From the NCBI RefSeq assembly GCF_001905885.1, contig NZ_LIYH01000002.1:363591-427590 (forward strand): DNA of 64,000 nucleotides. The letters are read 5' to 3'. Of this stretch, positions 11,444-28,061 are shown piece after piece. The position numbers and the translations under genes are program-made. The DNA is from Streptomyces sp. CB03234 (GTDB taxonomy: Bacteria; Actinomycetota; Actinomycetes; Streptomycetales; Streptomycetaceae). Each line of letters starts with the position of its first letter. Within the stretch, counting starts at the first letter, position 1. Below the pieces are notes generated by a model. The model was not told where the DNA came from. It was given only the letters and a program-made list of their open reading frames with translations, and did no database searches.

Positions 11444-12223
11444 ATGCTGTGCACCACCTGCGGGATGAACACCGCCTCGACCGGACAGGGCGTCTGCGGC
11501 GCCTGCGCGGTGCCGGCGCCCGCCGCCGGGCCCTTCCTCCGCTCACCCGTGGGCCTCGGTCGCGCCGTCGTCGTCCTGCTGTGCTTCGTGATCGTCGTGG
11601 ACCTGTTCGCGGTCTTCGCCGACGAGCATATGCACCGGTTCGCCCGTGACGTGGCGGCGGGCCACTGGGAAGGGCCGGTGTCCGAAGCCGATCGGGCGGA
11701 CCTGCTCATGGCATGGGCGGGCAGGCTGCAGGTGCTGTCCGTGGTCGCGACCGCCGTCGTCTTCATCAGCTGGCTCCACCGCGTGCGGCGGAACGCCGCC
11801 GTCTTCGCCCCGGACGTGCTGACCAGCGGGGCGGGGTGGGCGATCGGCGGCTGGTTCGTCCCCGTCGTGAACCTGTGGATGCCGCGCCGTATCACCCGCG
11901 AGAGCTGGCGGGCGAGCACACGTGCCCCCTACGGCGCCCCGGCGAAGAACGAGCGCGCCACCATTCTCAACGTGTGGTGGGCGCTGTGGGTCCTGACGGC
12001 TCTCCTCGGGCGGGGAGCGGGGATGGCGTACGACAAGGCCGACACGTTTCACGAGATCATGAGTGCCACCCGGCTGCTGGTGGTCGCCGACGCCGTGAGC
12101 GTCGCGGCCGCCCTGTGTGCCATCCTCGTCGTCCGCCGGCTGACGGCGATGCAGCACGCCAAGGCCATGCGGGGACCCGTCCCGACCGTCGCAGAACCGA
12201 TGGTTTCCGGCCACACGCAGTGA
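11444..12223 (+). CDS. DUF4328 family membrane protein with N-terminal zinc ribbon
   Basis: The 259-residue protein opens with two close cysteine pairs (CTTCGMN and CGAC), a probable metal-binding ribbon. Four or so membrane helices follow: AVVVLLCFVIVVDLF, VVATAVVFISWLHR, the GWFVPVVNLWMPRR segment that typifies DUF4328, and a C-terminal pair. The role of DUF4328 is unknown. The ATG at 11444 puts the first cysteine at residue 3. It lies 57 bases before a hypothetical gene on the same strand and could share its transcript. Confidence 0.75.
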   Translation: MLCTTCGMNTASTGQGVCGACAVPAPAAGPFLRSPVGLGRAVVVLLCFVIVVDLFAVFADEHMHRFARDVAAGHWEGPVSEADRADLLMAWAGRLQVLSVVATAVVFISWLHRVRRNAAVFAPDVLTSGAGWAIGGWFVPVVNLWMPRRITRESWRASTRAPYGAPAKNERATILNVWWALWVLTALLGRGAGMAYDKADTFHEIMSATRLLVVADAVSVAAALCAILVVRRLTAMQHAKAMRGPVPTVAEPMVSGHTQ

Positions 12224-12280
12224 CGAATTCCGGCCGAGCGGCGCAGTAAGGGGAGTACGCGTCCGCGACGGGAGACGTCC

Positions 12281-12790
12281 ATGAGTCAGAGCGCGCAGGA
12301 ACTGATCGCCGAGGCCGGCGAACGGGGGCTGGCCGCCTCCGCACTGGCCTGCCTCGACCGCTGCCTTCCCCTGCTCGACCCCGCGCCCGACGACCTCCTC
12401 CGCCCGCTGTGGCAGAGCGTGGCCGAGGGCGGGGCGGGCTGGGCCGAGCGGCTGGGGGAGGTACGGGCGGCGCTGGAGGAGACCGACGACGCCGACTCCG
12501 CCGTACTCGTACGGAAAATGCTCGGCGCCGCCCCGTCCGAGTGGGACGGGGCGGCGCTGCGCGCATGGGCGGAGGCGTGCTCCCTCACCGCGCTGGAACT
12601 GCACCAACAGCTCGGCGGCGGGCCGTTGGTGGAGGCCGAGGAACGGCGCCAGGTGCGGATCCTGGAGTTCCTCGCCGGCACACCGTCCGACGGCCCGCCC
12701 GCCGCCGGGCTCCGGCCGGTACTGGAGGTGTCGGCCGAGGCCCGGCGGGTGCTGCGGGCCGTGGTCTCGCGCCGCGAACGCGGCGCGTGA
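12281..12790 (+). CDS. Hypothetical acidic alpha-helical protein
   Basis: The 169-residue soluble protein is rich in Ala, Leu and Glu, with predicted helical stretches (SAQELIAEAGERGLAASAL, LGEVRAALEETDDADSA). A GGGAGACG site precedes the ATG. No domain was recognised. It is followed by a convergent large secreted amidase gene. Codon use matches neighbours, so it is likely genuine. Confidence 0.6.
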   Translation: MSQSAQELIAEAGERGLAASALACLDRCLPLLDPAPDDLLRPLWQSVAEGGAGWAERLGEVRAALEETDDADSAVLVRKMLGAAPSEWDGAALRAWAEACSLTALELHQQLGGGPLVEAEERRQVRILEFLAGTPSDGPPAAGLRPVLEVSAEARRVLRAVVSRRERGA

Positions 12791-12805: not shown

Positions 12806-15529
12806 TCAGGGCGCCAGCAGGCGGCCGATGTTCAGGCCCGTCCCGGCTCCCAGGCTGTTGACGCCGTAGTAGATGCCGGACGACGGGACGACGCCGGACG
12901 TGCTGCTGTTGTCCAGCTGCAGGATCACGCCGTTGTTGGCGGACTCGCCGTCCGCGCCGAGCGCCAGGTCCGCCCGGCCGTAACCGGACAGATCGGTCAG
13001 CACGACCGCCGCGCCGAGCCGCTCGTTCGGGGCCGAGTCACCGGGCACCCCGGTGGTGTCCTCGGAGTACGTGACCGAGCCGGTCGCCGTCATGCCGGTG
13101 GACGAGCCGCGCAGCAGGATCACCTGCCCGGCGTTGGCCTGGTTCACCCCGCCCCGCGTCAGGTCCTCGCCCGGCAGGCCGGTCAGGACGTCCCCGTACC
13201 CGTCGAGGTTGACGTCACCGATCGCGACGGACGCGCCCATCGTGTCGCCGGACTCGTCGGTGTCGGGCACACCGGTGGAGTTCTGCTGGAACGTGGCGCG
13301 GCCGGTCGCCGTCAGGCCGGTGGCGGAGCCCAGCACCTGGGCGACCGCGCCGCCGGTGGCGGTGTGGCCCGACTCGGTGCCGTTGGGCTGGCCGATCGCG
13401 AGGTCGTCGTACCCGTCGCCGTTGATGTCGCCGGCGGCGAGCGAGCGGCCGCCGCGCGGGTAGAGGACGCCGATCCGCTCCAGGCCGTTCGCCGTGCCCT
13501 TCAGGGCGACGATCCGGCCGACGCCGGAGGAGTCGCGGTAGGTGATCGCGGCGTCCGCGTACCCGTCCTTGTTGAAGTCGCCGCTCGCGGCGGACGCGAA
13601 GGACACCACCGAGGTGTTGGCCGTGTCGCTCAGGTAACCGGCCTTCGTCGGGTACGAGGCGTTCTTCGACTCGAACACCCACCAGCGGCCCGGGATGCCG
13701 GGCGCGACCGACAGCACGTCGGCCTTGCCGTCGGCGTTGAAGTCGCCCATGGTGACGGCGGTGCCGAGCTTGTCCCCGCTGCGCCGATAGGCGGGCGAGG
13801 TCATGTACGAGACACCGGAGTCGAGCTTCGGCCCGTTGAGGACGGTGACCGAACCGGTGTCCGTGTGGCCCGAGTCGTCGTCCTCGCCGGGCGCGCCGAC
13901 CGCCAGGTCCGCGTAACCGTCACCGTTGAAGTCGCCGTACGCGGTGGCCGTGCCGAAGGAGTCGGAGGCCTCGTTGTCTCCCGGCACGCCGGTGCTGTTC
14001 TGGTCGATCGTGAGGCGCGAGGTGAGGCTCGGCCCGTCGGTGGTGCCGCGCACCACCTTCACCTGGCCCGCGCCGGACGCGTACTTGGGCAGCGGGGCGA
14101 CCAGGTCGGTGATGCCGTCACGGTCGATGTCGGCGGTGGGGACCGCCGAGTTGCGGCCCGGGCCGGCGGCGAAGGCGCGGATGTCGGACAGCTCGGAGTA
14201 CAGGTTGCGGCCGGGGCAGGCGGTCGCGAAGGCGTCGCGGTGACCGGAGATCACGTTGAGCGTGGCGCTCTCGCCCTCGTCCCACACGCCGGTGTTGCCC
14301 TGGGCGGTCAGCGTGACCTTGCCCTGCGGGTCGCCGCCGTACTGCCCGAGCTTCCAGGCGGCGACGCGGGCGGCCGACTCCAGCGCGGCCCGGGTCGGCT
14401 TGGCGGCGGGCTTGCCGGCGGCGGCGTCGCCCTCGAAGTCGCCGAGGAAGGCGATACCGGTGGAGTAGCTGTTGAAGCCGTACGTGTGCGCGCCCTTGAC
14501 CGGCAGGTCGACGCCGCCGCCACGGCCCTCGAAGACCCGGCCGCACTTGTCGACGAGGAAGTTGTAGCCGAGGTCGTTCCAGCCCTCGGTCTTCACGTGG
14601 TACGTCATGATCGCGCGGACCATGGCGGGGGACTGGGCGCAGCTGTAGTTGTTGGTGTCGACGGTGTGGTGGACGAACACCGCCTGGATCTTGTCCAGGT
14701 ACTCCGGCGGGTCGTCGACGATCGACTCGTCGGCGCCCCACTCGGCGCGCGAGATGATCGGCGGCCGGTTGACGGTGGACGGCGGCGGGACGGGGACGGT
14801 CGCGGTGGGGGTGGGGGTGGGCGTCGCGGTGGGCGTCGTCTCCGTGGGCGCCGGCGTGGTCTCCGTGGCGGTGGAGGTGGCGGTGGCTGTGGCGGTCGGC
14901 TCGGTCGTCGCCGGAGCGGTCGTCGTCGCCGTCGCCGTGTCCGCCGGAACCGGCTCGGTGGTCTCCTCGACCGCGTACGCCGCGTACGCCGCGTTCTCGG
15001 CCGCGAGGGTGGGCTCCGCCTCACGGCCCTTCGGCAGGGCCGCCCCGTTCGCCGACTCGGCGGCTGTGACGCCAGGGTCGACCAGGTGCACCTTCAGGTC
15101 CTTGGGCAGGGCCTTGCCGGAGGTCACCTTGACCTGGACGGCGGTGGAGGGGCCGACCCAGGTGGGCTCGGACGCCCCGCGCTCGGGGACCTCCGCGCCG
15201 TCGGGGAGGTGGGAGTCCAGGTCCAGCGGCTGCCAGTCGGTCCACTTGCCGGTCACGGCGTCCCGGGTACGCACCCTGGCGTCGCCCGTCACCCGGGTCT
15301 TCGCGTCGCCCCAGCCGATGCCGACGAGCGAGAACTCCTCGGTCTCGGTGCTCGGCAGCGTCCGCTCGCCGGCCTTGCCCCCGCCGAGCCCCAGCGTCCG
15401 CAGCTTCGCCGGCCGCTCGGCCGGGCCCTTGGCCGGCCCGTCGCCGGACGGACCGGCCACGGCGACGGTGACCATTCCCGCGCCGCCGGCCACGACGGCG
15501 GCGAGAGTCAGCCAGGTTCTGCGTTTCAT
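12806..15529 (-). CDS. Secreted PGRP-type N-acetylmuramoyl-L-alanine amidase with FG-GAP repeats
   Basis: The modular exported protein has about 907 residues. After a signal peptide (MKRRTWLTLAAVV) and a Thr/Ala/Pro-rich linker comes a peptidoglycan-recognition/amidase domain. It has FVHHTVDTN, YNFLVDKCG, SGHRD and ACPG, giving the zinc-site His, His and Cys and the catalytic Tyr. The last half has about six to seven FG-GAP/integrin-like repeats with Ca-binding cores such as GDFNGDGYADLA and GDINGDGYDDLA, forming a probable beta-propeller. It would cut the amide between MurNAc and L-Ala in peptidoglycan, and the propeller probably binds wall, glycan or protein partners. A GTG 51 bases upstream is an alternative start. 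Confidence 0.85.
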   Translation of the reverse strand: MKRRTWLTLAAVVAGGAGMVTVAVAGPSGDGPAKGPAERPAKLRTLGLGGGKAGERTLPSTETEEFSLVGIGWGDAKTRVTGDARVRTRDAVTGKWTDWQPLDLDSHLPDGAEVPERGASEPTWVGPSTAVQVKVTSGKALPKDLKVHLVDPGVTAAESANGAALPKGREAEPTLAAENAAYAAYAVEETTEPVPADTATATTTAPATTEPTATATATSTATETTPAPTETTPTATPTPTPTATVPVPPPSTVNRPPIISRAEWGADESIVDDPPEYLDKIQAVFVHHTVDTNNYSCAQSPAMVRAIMTYHVKTEGWNDLGYNFLVDKCGRVFEGRGGGVDLPVKGAHTYGFNSYSTGIAFLGDFEGDAAAGKPAAKPTRAALESAARVAAWKLGQYGGDPQGKVTLTAQGNTGVWDEGESATLNVISGHRDAFATACPGRNLYSELSDIRAFAAGPGRNSAVPTADIDRDGITDLVAPLPKYASGAGQVKVVRGTTDGPSLTSRLTIDQNSTGVPGDNEASDSFGTATAYGDFNGDGYADLAVGAPGEDDDSGHTDTGSVTVLNGPKLDSGVSYMTSPAYRRSGDKLGTAVTMGDFNADGKADVLSVAPGIPGRWWVFESKNASYPTKAGYLSDTANTSVVSFASAASGDFNKDGYADAAITYRDSSGVGRIVALKGTANGLERIGVLYPRGGRSLAAGDINGDGYDDLAIGQPNGTESGHTATGGAVAQVLGSATGLTATGRATFQQNSTGVPDTDESGDTMGASVAIGDVNLDGYGDVLTGLPGEDLTRGGVNQANAGQVILLRGSSTGMTATGSVTYSEDTTGVPGDSAPNERLGAAVVLTDLSGYGRADLALGADGESANNGVILQLDNSSTSGVVPSSGIYYGVNSLGAGTGLNIGRLLAP

Positions 15530-15635
15530 GCTCAGAGGTCTGTACGCGTGCGCTTTGCGTCGCGGGCTCAAATGCCCCACTCCTCAGAAAAGTCGTGCCG
15601 GGAATTCGCTTTTACTGTTTACGGCTTGTTCGCGG

Positions 15636-20429: not shown

Positions 20430-21064
20430 CCACCGCCCCCGTCAGCGCCGATGACGTCCTGACCGCCGTCCGCCTCGCGGTGGGCACCCTCCGCCTGGCG
20501 GACGGCGACGCCGACTGGGACGCCAAGGCCGGGTCCCTGGAGTGGACGTGCTGGGAGACGGTCGAGCACCTGGCGGACGACCTGTTCGCGTACGCCGCCC
20601 AGCTCGGCCCCGAGCGCCCGCCCCTCGACGACGAGGTGCCGTTCCTGTGGGAGGCGCGGCGGCCGGGCGGACCCGCCAACGTCACGTACGCCGACCGGAG
20701 GGCCGGGCCCGCCGGACTGCTCCAGGTGCTGGAGGCGTGCGGGTCCATGCTCGCCGCGATGGTGCGGGTCACGCCTCCGCACGTGCGGGCGTACCACGGG
20801 TTCGGGGTGTCCGACCCGGAGGGCTTCGCCGCGATGGGCGTCGTCGAGACCCTCGTACACGCGCATGACGTCACCCAGGGGCTCGGCCTGCCCTGGAGCG
20901 CGCCGCCGAAGCTGTGCCACCGCGTCCTGCTGCGGCTCTTCCCCGACGCCCCGACGGACACACCGGCGTGGGACACCCTCCTGTGGGCGACCGGCCGGGG
21001 CGAGATCCGGGGCCGGGAGCGGTTGACGTCCTGGCGCTGGTACGGGGACGTCGCAGACGACTGA
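20426..21064 (+). CDS. DinB-like/mycothiol-dependent maleylpyruvate isomerase-fold protein
   Basis: The 212-residue protein uses TTG 20426, overlapping the DUF397 stop (TTGA). It has the four-helix DinB/MDMPI arrangement, with WETVEHLADDLFAYA early and VETLVHAHDVTQGLG later supplying histidines for a divalent metal site. Such proteins often use mycothiol or act as metal-dependent transferases. The tight coupling to the XRE/DUF397 pair suggests it is their regulated output, which is inference. Confidence 0.75.
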   Translation: MTTAPVSADDVLTAVRLAVGTLRLADGDADWDAKAGSLEWTCWETVEHLADDLFAYAAQLGPERPPLDDEVPFLWEARRPGGPANVTYADRRAGPAGLLQVLEACGSMLAAMVRVTPPHVRAYHGFGVSDPEGFAAMGVVETLVHAHDVTQGLGLPWSAPPKLCHRVLLRLFPDAPTDTPAWDTLLWATGRGEIRGRERLTSWRWYGDVADD

Positions 21065-21164
21065 GCGTTGCGAATGGTTGTACGAGTGGTGTGAAGTCGC
21101 CGTATGAGAAGCCACACGTTCCGTTCAGCGTGACGATCGAGGCGCCCGGGTCGCTGGGTCTGGC

Positions 21165-21596
21165 ATGGATGGGGACTTCAGCACACTGCCGGGCGCTCGG
21201 AACGTCCGTGCCTATGTGACGCAGTTCGTGGCGCGGGTGACCGAACGGAACCGGCTGCCGCTCGACTTCAGCGTCGCCAGCCTCCGGCTCGTCGACCTGG
21301 TGGTGGACGGGCTGAGGCGCGACCAGCCCGAGCGGTCGCGGGTCGAGCCGTTCCTGTGCGGGCTCGGTGCGTACGCCGGGGAGGTGATCGTGCGGCGGGC
21401 CGGGGCGGAGTGGGTGGACTTTGACGCCGGGCAGCGGGAGTACTTCGGGCAGCCGGTCGGCATCGTGATGCCTGACGGGCGGGCCTGGAACCCGCTGGGC
21501 AAGGTCGTGAACCGGTTCGAGGCGGGGTCCGAGGAGTCCGTACAGCACTTCTATCTGATGTTGCACGGGCGCGCCGGTCGCAAGGTGCTGCTGTGA
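21165..21596 (+). CDS. Hypothetical protein, possibly DUF6278-like
   Basis: The 143-residue soluble protein begins at ATG 21165. The middle region LGAYAGEVIVRRAGAEWV followed by FGQPVGIVMPDGRAWNPLGK resembles a small alpha/beta fold seen in uncharacterised Streptomyces proteins. The sequence ends FYLMLHGRAGRKVLL. No catalytic motif was recognised. It precedes the sigma factor operon by about 65 bases on the same strand. Confidence 0.55.
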   Translation: MDGDFSTLPGARNVRAYVTQFVARVTERNRLPLDFSVASLRLVDLVVDGLRRDQPERSRVEPFLCGLGAYAGEVIVRRAGAEWVDFDAGQREYFGQPVGIVMPDGRAWNPLGKVVNRFEAGSEESVQHFYLMLHGRAGRKVLL

Positions 21597-21662
21597 CACT
21601 TCCGGCTGCCCGGGCGCAGAGAAGGGTGGGGGATCTGTGACGGGCGGCGCGAAGAGGGCAGT

Positions 21663-22223
21663 GTGGGGGCGTACGACACGGAGCTCGGCGCTGCCGTCGA
21701 GCGCGCCCAGCAGGGGGACGAGGACGCGTTCGCGCAGGCGTACCGGCTGGTCCACCCAGGGCTGCTCGGATACGTACGCGGGCTCGTCGGCGACGATGCG
21801 GAGGACGTGGCCGCCGATGCGTGGCTGGAGATCGCCCGGGACCTCGGGCGGTTCCAGGGCGACGGCGCGGGTTTCCGCGGGTGGACGGCGACCATCGCCC
21901 GCCACCGGGCGCTCGACCATCTGCGCAAGCAGAAGCGAAGCCCCCGTACCTCTTTAATCGAACAAGACGTACTGGATCTGCCGGGCGGCCAGGACACGGC
22001 CGCCGCGGCGCTGGAGAGCCTCTCGACGGAGCAGGCGCTCGCGATGATTCGCGGGTTGCCGCGCGAGCAGGCCGAAGCGGTGCTGCTGCGTGTGGTCGTG
22101 GGCCTGGACGGCCCGGCGACCGCGCGGGTGCTGGGCAAGCGGCCGGGAGCGGTGCGCACCGCCGCGTACCGAGGACTGAAGAAACTCGCCGGGCGACTGG
22201 CGCAGGGCGGAGCTTGGGGATGA
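21663..22223 (+). CDS. ECF-type RNA polymerase sigma factor (copy 1)
   Basis: The 186-residue sigma factor has region 2 (about residues 10-80: GDEDAFAQAYRLVHPGLLGY, DDAEDVAADAWLEIARDL, FRGWTATIARHRALDHLR) and region 4 (LPREQAEAVLLRVVVGLDG, KRPGAVRTAAYRGLKKLAG). It would direct RNA polymerase to a small regulon. The start is GTG 21663. Its stop overlaps the next gene (ATGA), which encodes a single-pass membrane protein likely to control it. It is closely related to the sigma factor 1.5 kb downstream. Confidence 0.92.
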   Translation: MGAYDTELGAAVERAQQGDEDAFAQAYRLVHPGLLGYVRGLVGDDAEDVAADAWLEIARDLGRFQGDGAGFRGWTATIARHRALDHLRKQKRSPRTSLIEQDVLDLPGGQDTAAAALESLSTEQALAMIRGLPREQAEAVLLRVVVGLDGPATARVLGKRPGAVRTAAYRGLKKLAGRLAQGGAWG

Positions 22224-23107
22224 GCAGGGACAGGAACCCGCGCGAAGCGGACGGTGTCGCCGCGGTGCCGGCCGCGCTGCTGGCGGCTGCCGTGCGGGGC
22301 GGTGAGGTCGACCCGGCGGCCGAGGAACGCGCGGTCGCCGCTTTCCGGGCGGCCCGGGACGAGGGCGCGCACGCGGCGGGCAGGACCCGGCGGCGCGACG
22401 ACTGGAGGCCGGCCCGGGAGCGGCGGCGGCGGCGTTCGCTGCGGGCCACGGCGATGGGGCTGGCGGCGACCGTGCTGCTGGGCGGTGTCGCTGTGGCGGC
22501 GCAGACCGGCGCGATCCGCTCGCCGTTCGGCGGCGGGGACGGCGGGGCGGCTCCGAAGCCCGGGCCTTCGACGGCGTCCACGCCGGACGGCGGTGTGTCC
22601 GGTACGCCGGTCGCGGAGTGGCAGCGTACGCAGCAGCGCCCGACGGCACGGCCGACGCGCTCGACGCCCACGCCCGGTGCCGACAAGGGCCAGGACCAGG
22701 GCCAGGAGCAGGGCAAGAACCAGGGCAGTGACAGGGGCAACGGTTCGGGGAAGGGAGCCGAGGGGGGCGGAGCCGGTGGTCGCCCCGGCGGGAAGCCCGG
22801 CCAGAAGCCCGACGGCAAGCCGGGGCCGGAGCCCGGTGCGACGGGGTCCGGTGCCAGAGCGGGCGGTACGAAGGCGGGCGGTACGACGGCCGGCCGGAAG
22901 CCGGGTGCCGATCCGGCGCCGGCGGGGCCGGGCGCCCCTTCCGGCAACGGCACGGGCAGTGGCAGCGGGAGTGGCAGTGGCACGGCCAAGGGCACAGGCA
23001 CAGGCACGGGCAACGGCGGCGGCCACGACCACGGTGGCAAAAGCGGCAAGAGTGACAAGAGCGGCGGCGGCGAGAGCGCCACGCGCGGCCAGGGCGGGAA
23101 GCCGTGA
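22220..23107 (+). CDS. Single-pass membrane protein with long Gly/Thr/Lys-rich tail, probable sigma partner (copy 1)
   Basis: The 295-residue protein has an Arg-rich cytoplasmic segment of about 75 residues (VDPAAEERAVAAFRAARDEG), then one membrane helix (MGLAATVLLGGVAVAAQTG). Over 190 low-complexity residues of Gly, Lys, Ser and Thr follow outside. Translational coupling to the sigma gene and the same arrangement in the downstream pair suggest an anti-sigma-like function. However, no zinc anti-sigma HxxxCxxC motif is present, so the mechanism would be atypical. The tail could span the wall as a sensor. Confidence 0.7.
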   Translation: MSRDRNPREADGVAAVPAALLAAAVRGGEVDPAAEERAVAAFRAARDEGAHAAGRTRRRDDWRPARERRRRRSLRATAMGLAATVLLGGVAVAAQTGAIRSPFGGGDGGAAPKPGPSTASTPDGGVSGTPVAEWQRTQQRPTARPTRSTPTPGADKGQDQGQEQGKNQGSDRGNGSGKGAEGGGAGGRPGGKPGQKPDGKPGPEPGATGSGARAGGTKAGGTTAGRKPGADPAPAGPGAPSGNGTGSGSGSGSGTAKGTGTGTGNGGGHDHGGKSGKSDKSGGGESATRGQGGKP

Positions 23108-23328
23108 CCTGCACCCGGGTCCGGGGCGGAGGACGACCGGGGCCGCCACCCCCCACAGGAGAGGCCCCGGTCGTCGTCCACGGGTCCGCTGTACGGCCCC
23201 GTACTCCTATCAGCGCCACCCGTGCGGTTTCTGTCACACCGCACTGCGTCAACGTGATGTTGCAGGTTGTACAAGACATGGACGTGACGCCGGATGACCA
23301 CGTAGCGTGCTGCTGCGCGCCGGGCGTA

Positions 23329-24117
23329 GTGACGGCGGTGACCAGCCGCGATGACGAACAGGTAGTGGGAGTGCTGGGGGACGACGCGGAGCTGACCACC
23401 GCAGTGCTCGCGGCGCAGGACGGGGACGAGGACGCCTTCCGTGCTGTGTACCGCGCCGTGCACCCGCGGTTGCTCGGCTACATACGCACGCTGGTCGGCG
23501 ACGCCGACGCGGAGGACGTCGCGTCGGAGTCGTGGCTCCAGATATCCCGCGACCTCGACCGGTTCAGCGGGGACGCCGACCGCTTCCGGGGCTGGGCGGC
23601 CCGTATCGCCCGCAACCGCGCCCTCGACCACTTGCGCATGCGGGGCAGGCGCCCCGCCATAGGCGGGGACGAGACCGAACTCACCGACAAGCCGGCCGAG
23701 TCCGACACCGCGGGCGAGGCGATGGAAGCCCTGGCCACCGGCCGCACCATGAACCTCATCGCGCAACTCCCGCAGGACCAGGCCGAGGCGGTCATCCTGC
23801 GTGTCGTCGTCGGGCTGGACGCCAAGAGCGCCGCCAAGACGCTGGGCAAGCGGCCCGGCGCCGTACGCACCGCCGCGCACCGTGGACTGAAGCGGCTGGC
23901 CGAGCTGCTGGACGCGGACACGGACACGGCCGCGGGCGCCGAAGCGGGCACGGGCGCCGAAGCGGGCGCGAGGGCCGCCGCCGACGCGGGGCGCGACTCG
24001 ACCGGAACCGCGTCCGGCGCGCTGGGCGCCGTACCGCCACAGCCCAAGCGCCGAGTGGGTTCCGGGGCGCGTGCCGGTGTGACGCATTGGCGCTCGCGCA
24101 CGCAGAAGGACATGTGA
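23329..24117 (+). CDS. ECF-type RNA polymerase sigma factor (copy 2)
   Basis: The 262-residue sigma factor has region 2 (GDEDAFRAVYRAVHPRLLGY, DAEDVASESWLQISRDLD, FRGWAARIARNRALDHLR) and region 4 (LPQDQAEAVILRVVVGLDA, KRPGAVRTAAHRGLKRLAE). An Ala-rich tail ends in a conserved-looking THWRSRTQKDM. GTG 23329 is chosen because homologues start with a short MT-rich leader; GTG 23365 is an alternative. The 220 bases upstream contain no gene and should hold its promoter. The stop overlaps the next start (TGATG). Confidence 0.9.
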   Translation: MTAVTSRDDEQVVGVLGDDAELTTAVLAAQDGDEDAFRAVYRAVHPRLLGYIRTLVGDADAEDVASESWLQISRDLDRFSGDADRFRGWAARIARNRALDHLRMRGRRPAIGGDETELTDKPAESDTAGEAMEALATGRTMNLIAQLPQDQAEAVILRVVVGLDAKSAAKTLGKRPGAVRTAAHRGLKRLAELLDADTDTAAGAEAGTGAEAGARAAADAGRDSTGTASGALGAVPPQPKRRVGSGARAGVTHWRSRTQKDM

Positions 24118-25232
24118 TGGCCGACGAGCGGGATGAATGGCTCGACCAGGACGCGGCGGAGAGACTGCTGCGGGGTGAACCTGTCGGCCCCGTCGACGAT
24201 CACGCGTGGGAGCGGGCCCGGCGAGTGGCGCGGGCGCTGGACGCCATGCGCGCGGCCGCGGACCCCGCGAGGGGCGGGCTGCCGGGCGAGGAGGCCGCGC
24301 TGGCGGCGTTCCGTGAGGTACGGGCGGAGAAGGCCGCCGGGGCGCGGGCCGCTGTGACACCGTTGTCCGGCGTGCCGGGCGTCTCGGACGTACCGGACCT
24401 CGGGACCGTACACGACCGGCTGGGGCCCCGTCGGCGCATGCGCTGGGCGCGGCCCGTGCGGTGGGGCCTGGCCGCTTCGGTCGCCGGGCTGACCGTCGGC
24501 GGCGTGGCCGTGGCGGCCGGTACGGGCGTGCTGCCCGTCCTGGGCGGCGACAGCGAGCCGGTGCCCGCCGTGTCGGTGTCCGCCGAGCCCGCCCCCGGTA
24601 CGTCGGCGTCGGGTGACCCGACCGGTGGGTCGGGTTCCGCCACGCCCGGGACGGCCGGCGAGCCGGGGAGCGTGCCGCCGTCCGGGTCGGCGACGCCCGG
24701 CACGGGCACGGACCGTGTTCCGGGGCGGCCGGACCATGGGCGGACCGGTGGCGTCGGGGGCGACGACGGCTCGGGTGGCGGGCCCGGCAGCGCCACGGGT
24801 GACGGTGACGGCGGCGGGTCGGGTTCGGGTACCGGCTCCGGTCCGGGTGCCGATACGGGTGACACCTGGTTCGCGCAGACCGTGCGGGACTGCCGTGACT
24901 ACCGCGACGGCCGCCTCGACCCCGAGCGCAAGAAGCTGCTGGAGGAGGACGCGCGGGGCGCGGCCAACCTCAAGCGCTTCTGCGACAAGGTGCTGGCCGG
25001 CGACGCGCAGCACCAGAACGGCACCAGCGGCGGTTCGGGCGGCGGCAATGGCGCCGGCGGCACCGGTACCGGCAGCGGCGGCAGCGGCTCGGGCGGTGGC
25101 GCCGGTGGCGGCGAGGACGAGGGCCGCGACGGCGGCGAAGAGGGCGCCGACTCCGACGCGGCGCGCCCGACCGTCTCCTGGAGCCCGCTGGCCCCCGCGC
25201 TCTCCGTACGTCGGACCGGCCTGGTCTTCTGA
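24117..25232 (+). CDS. Single-pass membrane protein with Gly/Ser-rich exterior, probable sigma partner (copy 2)
   Basis: The 371-residue protein has about 115 cytoplasmic residues (EWLDQDAAERLLRGEPVG, HAWERARRVARALDAMRAAA), a membrane helix (WGLAASVAGLTVGGVAVAAG), and a long Gly/Ser/Thr-rich exterior. The exterior contains a small ordered island (TWFAQTVRDCRDYRDGRLD, then LKRFCDKVLAG) with two cysteines that could pair. It is overlapped by the sigma gene start-stop and matches the design of the upstream copy, supporting a sigma/membrane-regulator unit. No classic anti-sigma motif is seen. Confidence 0.72.
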   Translation: MADERDEWLDQDAAERLLRGEPVGPVDDHAWERARRVARALDAMRAAADPARGGLPGEEAALAAFREVRAEKAAGARAAVTPLSGVPGVSDVPDLGTVHDRLGPRRRMRWARPVRWGLAASVAGLTVGGVAVAAGTGVLPVLGGDSEPVPAVSVSAEPAPGTSASGDPTGGSGSATPGTAGEPGSVPPSGSATPGTGTDRVPGRPDHGRTGGVGGDDGSGGGPGSATGDGDGGGSGSGTGSGPGADTGDTWFAQTVRDCRDYRDGRLDPERKKLLEEDARGAANLKRFCDKVLAGDAQHQNGTSGGSGGGNGAGGTGTGSGGSGSGGGAGGGEDEGRDGGEEGADSDAARPTVSWSPLAPALSVRRTGLVF

Positions 25233-25383
25233 CCCCCTCTGGCCCCTCTGACCAGCGGTTTCAAAATTTCTTCCGCAGAGGTGTGACGTTTTTCCGGCCT
25301 GTGGCGCAGTACTGAGTGAGCCGACTGGTCATCGGCAGCGCGAAGAGCCGGGGTTCCCCCCGTACCTACGGCTCAGCGCACAT

Positions 25384-25422
25384 GGCGCGGGCGGGACACG
25401 TTCCCCCGGTCCCGCCCGCGCC
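25384..25422 (-). terminator. Hairpin terminator after the L,D-transpeptidase gene
   Basis: A 14-bp stem (GGCGCGGGCGGGAC and complement) with an 11-base loop starts 18 bases beyond the transpeptidase stop. It sits between two convergent genes and may serve both. Confidence 0.8.
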
Positions 25423-25440
25423 CTCTCTTCTCCCCACTGC

Positions 25441-26298
25441 TCACCAGTGGACGACGACCTTGTCGCCGACCTTCACCTGGCCGAACACGGCAGCGAGCCG
25501 GTCCATGTCCCGCACGTTGACGCAGCCGTGCGAGCCGCCGTTGTAGCCGCGGGCCTTGAAGTCCGACGAGTAGTGCACCGCCTGACCGCCGCTGAAGAAC
25601 ATCGAGTACGGCATCGACGTGTGGTAGAGCGTCGACTCCCACTCCCGCTCCTTGCGGTCGACCTTGAAGATGCCTTCGCGGGTCGGCGTGTTCTCGGAGC
25701 CGAAGCGGACGTCCATCGCGGAGACGACCTTGCCGTCGATCATCCAGGCGAGGGTCCGGCTCTCCTTGCTGATGCACAGCACCCGGCCCGTCATACAGCG
25801 CGCGTCGGGCTTGTCCAGCTCGTTGGTGGTCGGCGGCCGCAGCTCTTCGGCGGTCGGCTTGCGCGAGGCGGCCGTCAGCTTCTCCCACGTCGTCCCGTCG
25901 ACCGTGCCGGTGGCGGGCAAGGCCCGCGTCTTCTGGAAGGACGAGACCGCCTTGGCGGTCATCGAGCCGTAGAAGGCGGTGGGGCTGCGGTGGAAGTGGC
26001 CGAGCTGGCGCAGCCGCGCCTGGAGTTCGCGTACCTGCTCGTTCTCCGTACCCTCCGCCATCAGCACCTTCGCGGCAGGCGACGAGGCCGGGGCGGAAGC
26101 CGTCGGCTCGGCGCCGCCGGCGGCGGACGCGCCGGACGACGGCGAGGGAGAGGGAGAGGGAGAGGCCGCGGGCGACGCGGCCGACGGCGAGGCCGACACC
26201 CCGGCCGCCCCCACGGCCTGGGTGGTGCAGCCGGTGGCGGCCAGGGCGACGGCGGCAGCGGCCAGTACTGCTCTGCGTATGACGGACGTACGGTGCAC
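25441..26298 (-). CDS. L,D-transpeptidase lipoprotein (YkuD domain)
   Basis: The 285-residue lipoprotein (lipobox LAATGC) has a Ser/Pro/Ala-rich linker and a peptidoglycan-binding type 1 domain (ENEQVRELQARLRQLGHFHR, then AVSSFQKTRALPATGTVDG). A C-terminal YkuD domain carries VHYSSDF and the catalytic SHGCVNV cysteine motif. It should make 3-3 cross-links or attach proteins to peptidoglycan outside the membrane, a carbapenem-sensitive reaction. GTG 26298 is chosen because it gives a complete signal peptide. A second, differently built L,D-transpeptidase is encoded at 47142. Confidence 0.93.
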   Translation of the reverse strand: MHRTSVIRRAVLAAAAVALAATGCTTQAVGAAGVSASPSAASPAASPSPSPSPSSGASAAGGAEPTASAPASSPAAKVLMAEGTENEQVRELQARLRQLGHFHRSPTAFYGSMTAKAVSSFQKTRALPATGTVDGTTWEKLTAASRKPTAEELRPPTTNELDKPDARCMTGRVLCISKESRTLAWMIDGKVVSAMDVRFGSENTPTREGIFKVDRKEREWESTLYHTSMPYSMFFSGGQAVHYSSDFKARGYNGGSHGCVNVRDMDRLAAVFGQVKVGDKVVVHW

Positions 26299-26480
26299 AG
26301 GAGCCCCCCGAATCGATGATCTGTACCTAATGGATGCTTCCCAGGGGTGCTTGGTTGCGCACCGCGGCGCATGCTGTGAGGAAGGTCCCAGCGTGCGGCT
26401 CTCCACCGGCCGCACGCCCGCCGCTACAGTCCGTCGCGAGGGTCGGTACCAGCGAGTAGGTCTATCGGAGGGCACAGCAC

Positions 26481-28061
26481 ATGGCGCGCGAGTCGGAGTC
26501 GGGACTTCCCATTGAGCCGGTGTACGGGCCGGACGCCCTCAGCGGATGGAACCCCGACGAGAAACTGGGCGAACCGGGCTCGTACCCCTTCACGCGCGGT
26601 GTCTACCCGACCATGTACACCGGCCGGCCCTGGACGATGCGGCAGTACGCCGGTTTCGGCACCGCCGTCGAGTCCAACGCCCGCTACAAGCAGCTGATCG
26701 CCAACGGCACCATGGGCCTGTCGGTCGCCTTCGACCTGCCGACCCAGATGGGGCACGACAGCGACGCGCCGATCGCGCACGGCGAGGTCGGCAAGGTGGG
26801 CGTGGCGATCGACTCGATCGACGACATGCGCGTGCTGTTCGGCGGGATCCCGCTGGACAAGGTCTCCACGTCGATGACGATCAACGCCCCGGCCGCTCTC
26901 CTGCTCCTGCTCTACCAACTCGTCGGCGAGGAGCAGGGCGTCCCGGCGGACAAGCTGACGGGCACCATCCAGAACGACGTGCTCAAGGAGTACATCGCAC
27001 GCGGCACGTACATCTTCCCGCCGAAGCCGTCGCTGCGGCTGATCGCCGACATCTTCAAGTACTGCAAGGCCGAGATCCCGAAGTGGAACACGATCTCGAT
27101 CTCCGGCTACCACATGGCGGAGGCCGGGGCGTCGCCCGCGCAGGAGATCGCGTTCACCCTCGCGGACGGCATCGAGTACGTCCGTACCGCTGTCGCCGCC
27201 GGCATGGACGTGGACGACTTCGCGCCCCGCCTGTCGTTCTTCTTCGTCGCCCGCACCACCATCCTGGAGGAGGTGGCGAAGTTCCGGGCCGCGCGGCGGA
27301 TCTGGGCGCGGGTGATGCGGGACGAGTTCGGCGCGAAGAACCCCAAGTCGCTGATGCTGCGCTTCCACACCCAGACGGCGGGCGTGCAGCTGACGGCCCA
27401 GCAACCCGAGGTGAACCTGGTGCGCGTCGCCGTGCAGGGCCTGGCGGCCGTCCTCGGCGGTACGCAGTCACTGCACACCAACTCCTTCGACGAGGCCATC
27501 GCGCTGCCCACCGACAAGAGCGCCCGCCTGGCGCTGCGCACGCAGCAGGTCCTGGCGTACGAGACGGACGTCACCGCCACCGTCGACCCGTTCGCCGGGT
27601 CGTACGTCATCGAGAAGATGACGGACGACGTGGAGGCCGCCGCCCTCGAACTCATGACGAAGGTCGAGGACCTCGGCGGCGCGGTCAACGCGATCGAGCG
27701 CGGCTTCCAGAAGAACGAGATCGAGCGCTCCGCCTACCGCATCGCGCAGGAGACCGACTCCGGCGAACGCGTCGTCGTCGGCGTCAACCGCTACACGCTC
27801 GACGAGGAGGAGCCCTACGAGCCGCTGCGCGTCGACCCGGCGATCGAGGCCCAGCAGGCCGAGCGCCTCGCCAAGCTGCGCGCCGAGCGCGACCAGGCGG
27901 CGGTCGACGCGGCGCTCGCCGAGCTGAAGAAGGCGGCCGAGGGCACGGACAACGTCCTGTACCCGATGAAGGACGCCCTCAAGGCGCGGGCCACGGTCGG
28001 CGAGGTGTGCAACGCGCTGCGTGAGGTGTGGGGGACGTACGTCCCGACGGACGCTTTCTGA
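26481..28061 (+). CDS. Acyl-CoA mutase large subunit (methylmalonyl-CoA mutase type, no B12 domain)
   Basis: The 526-residue protein covers only the substrate-binding TIM barrel; the C-terminal cobalamin domain with D-x-H-x-x-G is absent, so a separate small subunit must supply B12. The motifs [18 protein letters not shown] and [14 protein letters not shown] retain the Tyr and Arg that in methylmalonyl-CoA mutase contact the substrate carboxylate, whereas isobutyryl-CoA mutases have Phe and Gln. This favours a carboxylated acyl-CoA substrate. A GGAGG site precedes the ATG. No small subunit or MeaB chaperone gene is adjacent. Confidence 0.88.

Follow-up and report, generated by a model that had tools for sequence, protein, structure and literature searches.

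A tandem pair of ECF sigma factor/membrane-protein genes in Streptomyces, accompanied by a recurrent promoter-like element and two putative small RNAs

Results

A core and an accessory sigma factor/membrane-protein pair

We analysed a 64,000-nucleotide stretch of DNA (the window; G000:C6:363591-427590) from a 7.77-Mb Streptomyces genome, focusing on two consecutive gene pairs, each made up of an extracytoplasmic function (ECF) sigma factor and a single-pass membrane protein. The four genes of pair A (sigA, memA) and pair B (sigB, memB) are located in the window as follows:

21663..22223, + strand: sigA, ECF sigma factor of accessory pair A (Pfam Sigma70_r2 and r4_2; 61% identity to sigB)
22220..23107, + strand: memA, single-pass membrane protein whose head reads EERAVAAFR (about 22322-22348) and whose ectodomain is lost (no cysteine)
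23371..24117, + strand: sigB, core ECF sigma factor (conserved GTG start at 23371)
24117..25232, + strand: memB, single-pass membrane protein, proposed anti-sigma factor

An initial annotation made from the letters alone had described a tandem arrangement of sigma factors with nearly the same region 4, coupled by start-stop overlap to membrane proteins that share an EE-x-A-x-AAFR pattern in their cytoplasmic heads and lack the zinc anti-sigma motif H-x3-C-x2-C. This description is borne out. Both sigmas match Sigma70_r2 (PF04542) and Sigma70_r4_2 (PF08281) above cut-off and thus qualify as ECF sigma factors; they are 61% identical to each other, with the next homologue in the same genome at only 35%, and have KRPGAVRTAA in common. 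The sigA/memA overlap is ATGA and that of sigB/memB TGATG, the heads read EERAVAAFR in memA and EEAALAAFR in memB, and the zinc motif is absent from both proteins, memA having no cysteine at all and memB two, both outside the membrane. The exterior, described as a very long Gly/Ser/Thr stretch, turns out not to be low-complexity throughout: residues 247-300 of memB are modelled as a three-helix domain. At the sigB start, GTGCTGGG is found in 55 of 61 loci.

The two pairs are not equal partners: B is the core and A the accessory. A sigB match (E up to 1e-60) is present in 196 of 199 genomes of the genus and in 193 of the 194 good ones, and a hand count across 37 same-genus genomes gave sigB-type rows in all 37 and sigA-type rows in 17. 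Among the 162 B loci with enough sequence, memB follows sigB with its head present in 158 (147 by regular expression, 11 by eye) and is apparently absent or broken in four. Many 12-kb loci have sigA some 1-2 kb upstream of sigB, and genes for an L,D-transpeptidase and an acyl-CoA mutase downstream. The suggestion that these proteins may sense the cell wall has as its only basis their exterior and the neighbouring L,D-transpeptidase gene. In one contig (L018, 6001-7951) pair B lies on the strand opposite to pair A.

From gene order we take the locus to be SCO4864-SCO4867 of S. coelicolor, with SCO4866 as the apparent counterpart of sigB. One study lists SCO4864 and SCO4866 as ECF sigmas and has SCO4866 going up and SCO4864 down upon acid shock (PMC2631018); according to another, SCO4866 is more than 3-fold up early in germination (PMC4367926).

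A two-cysteine ectodomain and a conserved helical head

Two parts of memB stand out, one on either side of the membrane:

24849..25001, + strand: two-cysteine three-helix ectodomain of memB (predicted local distance difference test score, pLDDT, 95-97 over residues 251-290)
24279..24314, + strand: conserved head motif LPGEEAALAAFR, start of helix 3 in the head model

The ectodomain is modelled as three helices between residues 247 and 300. Its two cysteines, C259 and C289, are conserved without exception in the 54 memB rows of an alignment assembled without regard to cysteine (A1: the window plus 53 memB). Note that a further alignment (A5: the window plus 58 ectodomains) was picked by the cysteine-pair pattern, so that invariance in it arises by construction and is not used here. 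A regular expression for the pair matched 139 of 144 full-length memB, one of the five misses being a spacing variant by eye, and 60 of 81 memA. The pair is absent from the memA of the window, from its close relatives (L009-L012) and from some others; memA counts depend on the regular expression used to find the gene, which returned no memA at 16 of 97 sigA loci, some of them cut by contig ends.

The ectodomain also travels beyond the genus. Of 16 outside-genus sigma loci (L118-L133, some contig-cut), 9 contain a protein that matches its profile at E <1e-4, while the 20 loci around sigmas that we take to be BldN-like (L138-L157) yield no match below E 0.8; in a class-wide sample the profile matches 33 of 197 genomes and 15 of 90 genera. 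We read 15 outside-genus loci carrying the ectodomain: at 13 of them an ECF sigma gene precedes it on the same strand, and at 13 a GE.AA.AAF-like head is visible by eye, neither being seen at L290 and L295. Co-occurrence of sigma factor and membrane protein, whose absence together with a lack of interaction the initial annotation would have counted against its proposal, thus extends to genomes outside the genus. Its call for a profile search of the head family had a more mixed outcome: heads are recognizable by eye at those 13 ectodomain loci, but only 2 of the 16 sigma loci (L127, L131) pass E 0.001 with the head profile.

In the memB model, the head contains helices at residues 11-18, 28-47 and 58-79. 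Modelled alone from 113 rows (alignment A4: the window and 112 of the 134 listed heads), it again forms three helices, with a mean pLDDT of 77.8 and a predicted template modelling score (pTM) of 0.38; a class I anti-sigma domain would comprise a three-helix bundle and a further, fourth helix. Compared with hhalign, the A and B head sets join at 89.8% probability over only 23 columns, and they join a set of eight outside-genus heads at 73% and 81% (23 to ~40 residues across comparisons); these probabilities lean upward because the sets were trimmed around the motif or, for the eight outside-genus heads, picked by a motif-like regular expression. Against 14 RsbN-type heads, the probability is 0.46% for B and 0.09% for A.

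What kind of domain might this be? With no cysteine in the heads of either memA or memB, they are not zinc-type class I domains. The initial annotation had taken the missing zinc motif as a sign of a distinct class, and this argument fails: about 44% of class I anti-sigma domains have no zinc motif either (PMC7406223), so that its absence is no mark of novelty. Pfam gave no hit below E 0.1 for 54 memB and only weak hits for 59 memA (of 63 available; alignment A2), the best being DUF2613 at E 0.0015 in five, and searches of PDB sequences and folds with memB and its head, Foldseek and VIA included, returned no usable match. The anti-sigma factor MucA came up only at E 3.6 and, with VIA, on the ectodomain, and was given no weight. 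Since no Pfam, PDB, fold or RsbN-profile match was obtained, it is possible that the head represents a distinct anti-sigma class, keeping in mind that lack of a fold match does not show a new fold. From gene order and head conservation we consider an anti-sigma role for memB likely.

If the head contacts the sigma factor, their residues might covary. We computed couplings between sigma B and memB from 135 of 166 B loci, dropping those with an unclear head, an unclear ectodomain or gaps, with the ectodomain, which is unable to touch the sigma, as internal control. There is no enrichment: the head accounts for 8 of the top 10 couplings (6.1 expected), 31 of the top 50 (30.4 expected) and 59 of the top 100 (60.8 expected). 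The best coupling is between sigma P160, part of KRPGAV, and head D9; N9 is confined to sequences with A160 (8/13) and never accompanies P160 (0/122). We set this pair aside as evidence: it was chosen post hoc among about 14,000 and comes down to two coincident branches.

A promoter-like element at fixed spacing

A short two-part element, GTRAC[AG]-N15-RCGC[AT] (that is, GTRAC[AG] followed by RCGC[AT] at spacing 16), recurs at the locus, including next to two putative small RNAs described below:

21592..21619, + strand: promoter-like element before sigA (spacing 16 in 83/97 distinct sigA loci)
23211..23238, - strand: promoter-like element between RNA1 and sigB (163/164 loci with the RNA1 loop)
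24078..24105, + strand: promoter-like element ahead of memB, lying within the end of sigB (157/161 distinct windows)
25282..25309, + strand: promoter-like element before RNA2 (101/144 loci)

The element is also found at spacing 16 before memA in 65 of 96 cases and, outside the genus, in 9 of 14 windows (13 loci) ahead of mem genes. Gene-body controls at the same spacing gave 0/166 and 0/97, and the memB, memA and sigA windows contained no element when read backwards. A scan for sigma-70 promoters and terminators returned nothing.

The copy before memB overlaps coding sequence. Here the end of sigB reads GTGTGACGCAT-N10-CGGACGCAGAAGG, with codons fixed beyond what the protein needs: threonine is encoded by ACG in 98% of cases in both tail columns, compared with 53-92% for the commonest codon in other threonine columns, and the tail codons for threonine, valine and arginine are more fixed than elsewhere in sigB. 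We considered a protein-level tail, VTHxRxRTQKDM, as the main cause and rejected it in view of this codon fixation and of one outside-genus locus (L280) in which the element lies across the stop codon of the sigma gene; because of this locus, the element cannot be a protein motif. An RNA hairpin at the sigB/memB junction found no support either (fold z 0.2).

How local is the element? In the genome of the window, TGTGACR-N14-SRCGCWG occurs six times, four of them in the locus and the remaining two inside open frames of 212-626 residues; the reversed pattern does not occur. Across 15 genomes (this one and 14 of the same genus for which all matches were listed), a hand tally places 73 of 118 element matches within 10 kb of sigA or sigB, with 10 matches to the reversed pattern. 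Where extra copies of sigA exist on other contigs (G021 C161, G025 C7, G032 C8), these too have sites of their own, one ahead of sigA and one ahead of memA. The -35-like half, GTRAC[AG], resembles the -35 GTAAC[A/G] given for C. glutamicum sigma D, together with a -10 of GAT (PMC6338062).

Two putative structured RNAs flank sigB and memB

Two further conserved segments lie outside the genes:

23128..23206, - strand: RNA1, putative small RNA with two hairpins and the invariant loop UCUCCUGUGGGGGGUGGC (covariation, fold z -3.7)
25313..25428, + strand: RNA2, putative small RNA of ~115 nt with three hairpins, the last terminator-like (fold z -4.9)

RNA1 lies about 240 nt upstream of sigB, just after memA. 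In 164 of 166 loci a 17-nt segment of it is no more than 700 nt from sigB; this 17-mer is single-copy in 36 of the 37 genus genomes and was found in none of 24 others. At one locus (L112, G030) coding-like sequence intervenes, and the RNA1 loop is ~1.4 kb upstream of sigB. The minus-strand element points through RNA1 in 163 of 164 loci, its end 45-56 nt from the loop. RNA1 alignments covered 71 distinct sequences of 164 RNA1 loci (A3) and 70 of 151 distinct RNA1 sequences (A6). Read on the minus strand, in the set of 70, the two hairpins have 98.6% of 1397 cells paired and 9 of 20 pairs with two-sided changes; none of 500 shuffles reaches the observed value and slid versions pair at 29-53%. 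RNA1 thus shows compensatory changes beyond both shuffle and slide controls, as a conserved structured RNA should. A plus-strand RNA1 was considered and rejected, the main hairpin pairing at 92.0% on that strand and the fold z being only -1.6. Because plus-strand mispairs become G-U on the minus strand, RNA1 most likely runs on the latter. Its loop contains UCUCCU, which is complementary to ribosome-binding sites.

RNA2 follows memB and runs toward the 3' end of the L,D-transpeptidase gene. Among the B loci with enough sequence, GCCGACTGGTCATCGGC is present in 113 of 115 and a second core in 101; a strict element precedes RNA2 in 78 of 101 loci carrying the RNA2 core. Its 17-mer is likewise single-copy in 36 of the 37 genus genomes, and one of 24 others has it. 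In RNA2, 99.5% of cells are paired (37-46% in slid versions) and 7 of 33 pairs have two-sided changes. Note that few pairs vary, so that shuffled alignments still average 98.7% pairing; the more informative count is that of two-sided cells, 20 as compared with 1.6, and none of 200 shuffles reaches either the pairing or the two-sided value. RNA2, too, therefore carries the compensatory changes of a conserved structured RNA. Because of the element and the lower energy (-56.7, versus -46.6 on the other strand), we place RNA2 on the plus strand, with less certainty than for RNA1.

That the invariant GGGGGG of RNA1 might contact the conserved CCCCCC of RNA2 is speculation. Rfam gave no match at the gathering threshold in the window and six weak hits (E 1.3-5.5) in 20800-26600. 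In calling both RNAs unannotated, we make no claim that they are unpublished, the literature not having been searched by RNA sequence. A curious arrangement is found at one locus (L134, G036:C18:185500-189300), where the sigma has lost its tail and the search next to sigB turned up no memB, yet the 17-mers of both RNAs are kept; RNA2 directly follows the sigma, making this a natural test case for an unrestrained sigma factor.

A conserved small gene nearby

A further candidate target lies some 9 kb from the pair:

12219..12246, + strand: near-match element before the conserved small gene (two mismatches to the first pattern)
12281..12790, + strand: conserved small gene (MSQSAQELIAEAGERGLAASALACLDRC), putative regulon member, ~9 kb from the pair

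The near-match is one of eight two-mismatch matches in the genome (reversed control: two) and, by eye, is one base off the later element pattern. Across homologues of the small gene, a strict element is found in 25 of 33 listed upstream sites. The product has no Pfam hit at E 0.01. Adjoining the gene, 12806-15580 on the minus strand encodes what appears by eye to be a large peptidoglycan-recognition/amidase-like protein with repeats.

Discussion

A membrane-held sigma factor with local outputs?

We propose the following scenario. Sigma B would be held at the membrane by memB, with the helical cytoplasmic head acting as the anti-sigma part and the two-cysteine ectodomain as the sensor. A signal from outside, probably envelope stress, would free sigma B, probably via regulated proteolysis. 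Free sigma B would then read GTRAC[AG]-N15-RCGC[AT] promoters, largely at its own locus: transcription of memB would provide negative feedback, and sigA, most memA (the accessory copy), the small conserved gene, RNA1 and RNA2 would be further targets, with the two RNAs carrying part of the response. We judge this circuit as a whole, that is, a memB-held sigma B, local promoters and two RNAs, to be on balance probable. The bolder version is a genus-wide envelope circuit in which the core sigma is restrained by a new structural class of membrane anti-sigma factor with a two-cysteine sensor, and acts for the most part locally, chiefly through two dedicated small RNAs next to its own operon, one with a loop complementary to ribosome-binding sites; this we put forward tentatively, as possible rather than probable.

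A number of observations weigh against the proposed circuit. With regard to the promoters, sigB itself has no plus-strand element (0/166), a second RCGCW sits at spacing 13 in 66 of 161 memB windows, the memB element would yield a nearly leaderless mRNA, and 45 of the 118 element matches in the 15 genomes lie elsewhere. Moreover, the motif was widened (R at position 3) after outside-genus sites had been seen, and the -10-like RCGC[AT] is unlike the GAT of sigma D (PMC6338062). With regard to the RNAs, the fold of RNA1 on the plus strand is weak, as mentioned above, and a regular expression misses the second RNA2 core in 14 of 115 B loci. With regard to memB, neither the head couplings nor the P160/D9 pair lend support, the Pfam, PDB and fold searches matched the head to no known anti-sigma factor, the head profile passes at few outside-genus loci, and a same-strand sigma is missing at outside-genus L290 and L295 as well as at same-genus L271 (where the exception concerns the sigma only).

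Are there better ways to account for these data? The element might be an operator for another DNA-binding regulator, the sigma pair being only one of its targets. Sites on both strands near sigB and inside it, an unusual -10-like half and the want of a plus-strand site for sigB would all fit; the fixed spacing of 16, the orientation toward gene or RNA starts, the separate sigA copies with sites of their own and the sites before mem genes in other families would not, and we regard an operator as improbable. Similarly, RNA1 and RNA2 might be terminators or 3' ends of neighbouring messages rather than independent small RNAs, given that one comes just after memA, the other after memB, and that the last RNA2 hairpin is terminator-like. 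What makes this unlikely is that the RNA1 loop is invariant, that RNA1 pairs better on the minus strand (98.6% for the two hairpins, against 92.0% for the main hairpin on the plus strand), that a promoter-like element lies 45-56 nt from the loop, and that the RNAs persist in genomes without pair A and, at L134, without memB in front of RNA2.

Two further alternatives concern the proteins. Pair B could be an ordinary RsbN-type (class III) or class I ECF/anti-sigma pair that has drifted beyond recognition, in which case the mechanism would not be new. The closest other sigma in the genome is presumably BldN-like and adjoins a protein matching 6dxo_D. Three helices without zinc would also fit class III as portrayed in PMC7406223. 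Drift would leave the RNAs unexplained, and the RsbN-type head probability is below 1% with no fold match, although a missing match does not exclude the possibility; we consider it somewhat unlikely, and the strongest of the challenges. Alternatively, the membrane proteins could be activators or envelope scaffolds co-expressed with the sigma rather than anti-sigma factors. The absence of head coevolution enrichment and the four loci where memB is absent or broken speak for such a role; the overlapping gene order in the genus, the sigma-first order in other families and the conserved helical head speak against it, making it very unlikely in our view.

SigB is present in nearly all Streptomyces genomes examined, yet the germination study gives the targets of its apparent counterpart SCO4866 as unknown (PMC4367926). 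The elements and RNAs provide a testable hypothesis as to what sigB might control, namely the gene of its inhibitor, the second copy of the pair, a small protein and the two RNAs. If a sigma factor responds by way of RNAs, this would add a new layer to envelope control in antibiotic producers.

Comparison with known systems

One close point of reference is BldN-RsbN of Streptomyces, likewise an ECF sigma factor with a membrane anti-sigma factor, and its presumed counterpart in this genome can be inspected directly: at L137 (1073-3272, minus strand), the BldN-like sigma is accompanied by an RsbN-type protein with a DUF5667 domain and a match to 6dxo_D at 4.6e-34. In layout the memB head is similar to RsbN, but the profiles are unlike, and outside the membrane the RsbN-type protein has DUF5667 where memB has the two-cysteine ectodomain. 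Membrane anchoring is described in PMC8103513; in class III factors, helices 1-2 bind sigma4 and helix 3 binds sigma2 (PMC7406223).

SigD-RsdA of corynebacteria and mycobacteria offers a different parallel. ShbA is akin to SigD, and RsdA is not known to have a zinc motif. The system has a membrane anti-sigma factor and involves envelope stress and site-1/site-2 proteolysis (PMC11175481). The likeness to pair B consists of a membrane-bound, here proposed, anti-sigma factor and of a -35 (GTAAC[A/G]; PMC6338062) close to GTRAC[AG]; the differences are that the -10 is not the same and that no RsdA-type Pfam hit was obtained in memB or memA. ShbA (NCBIfam NF007230) is the best NCBIfam match of both sigmas, but at 89.5 and 92.6 bits they score far below its curated cut-off of 209 and so fall outside the family as curated.

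Finally, E. coli sigma E is restrained by the membrane anti-sigma factor RseA and drives the small RNAs MicA and RybB. The resemblance is one of logic only and we make no claim of homology, RNA homology having been compared via Rfam only (0 matches). Unlike in the E. coli system, the RNAs described here flank the sigma operon itself.

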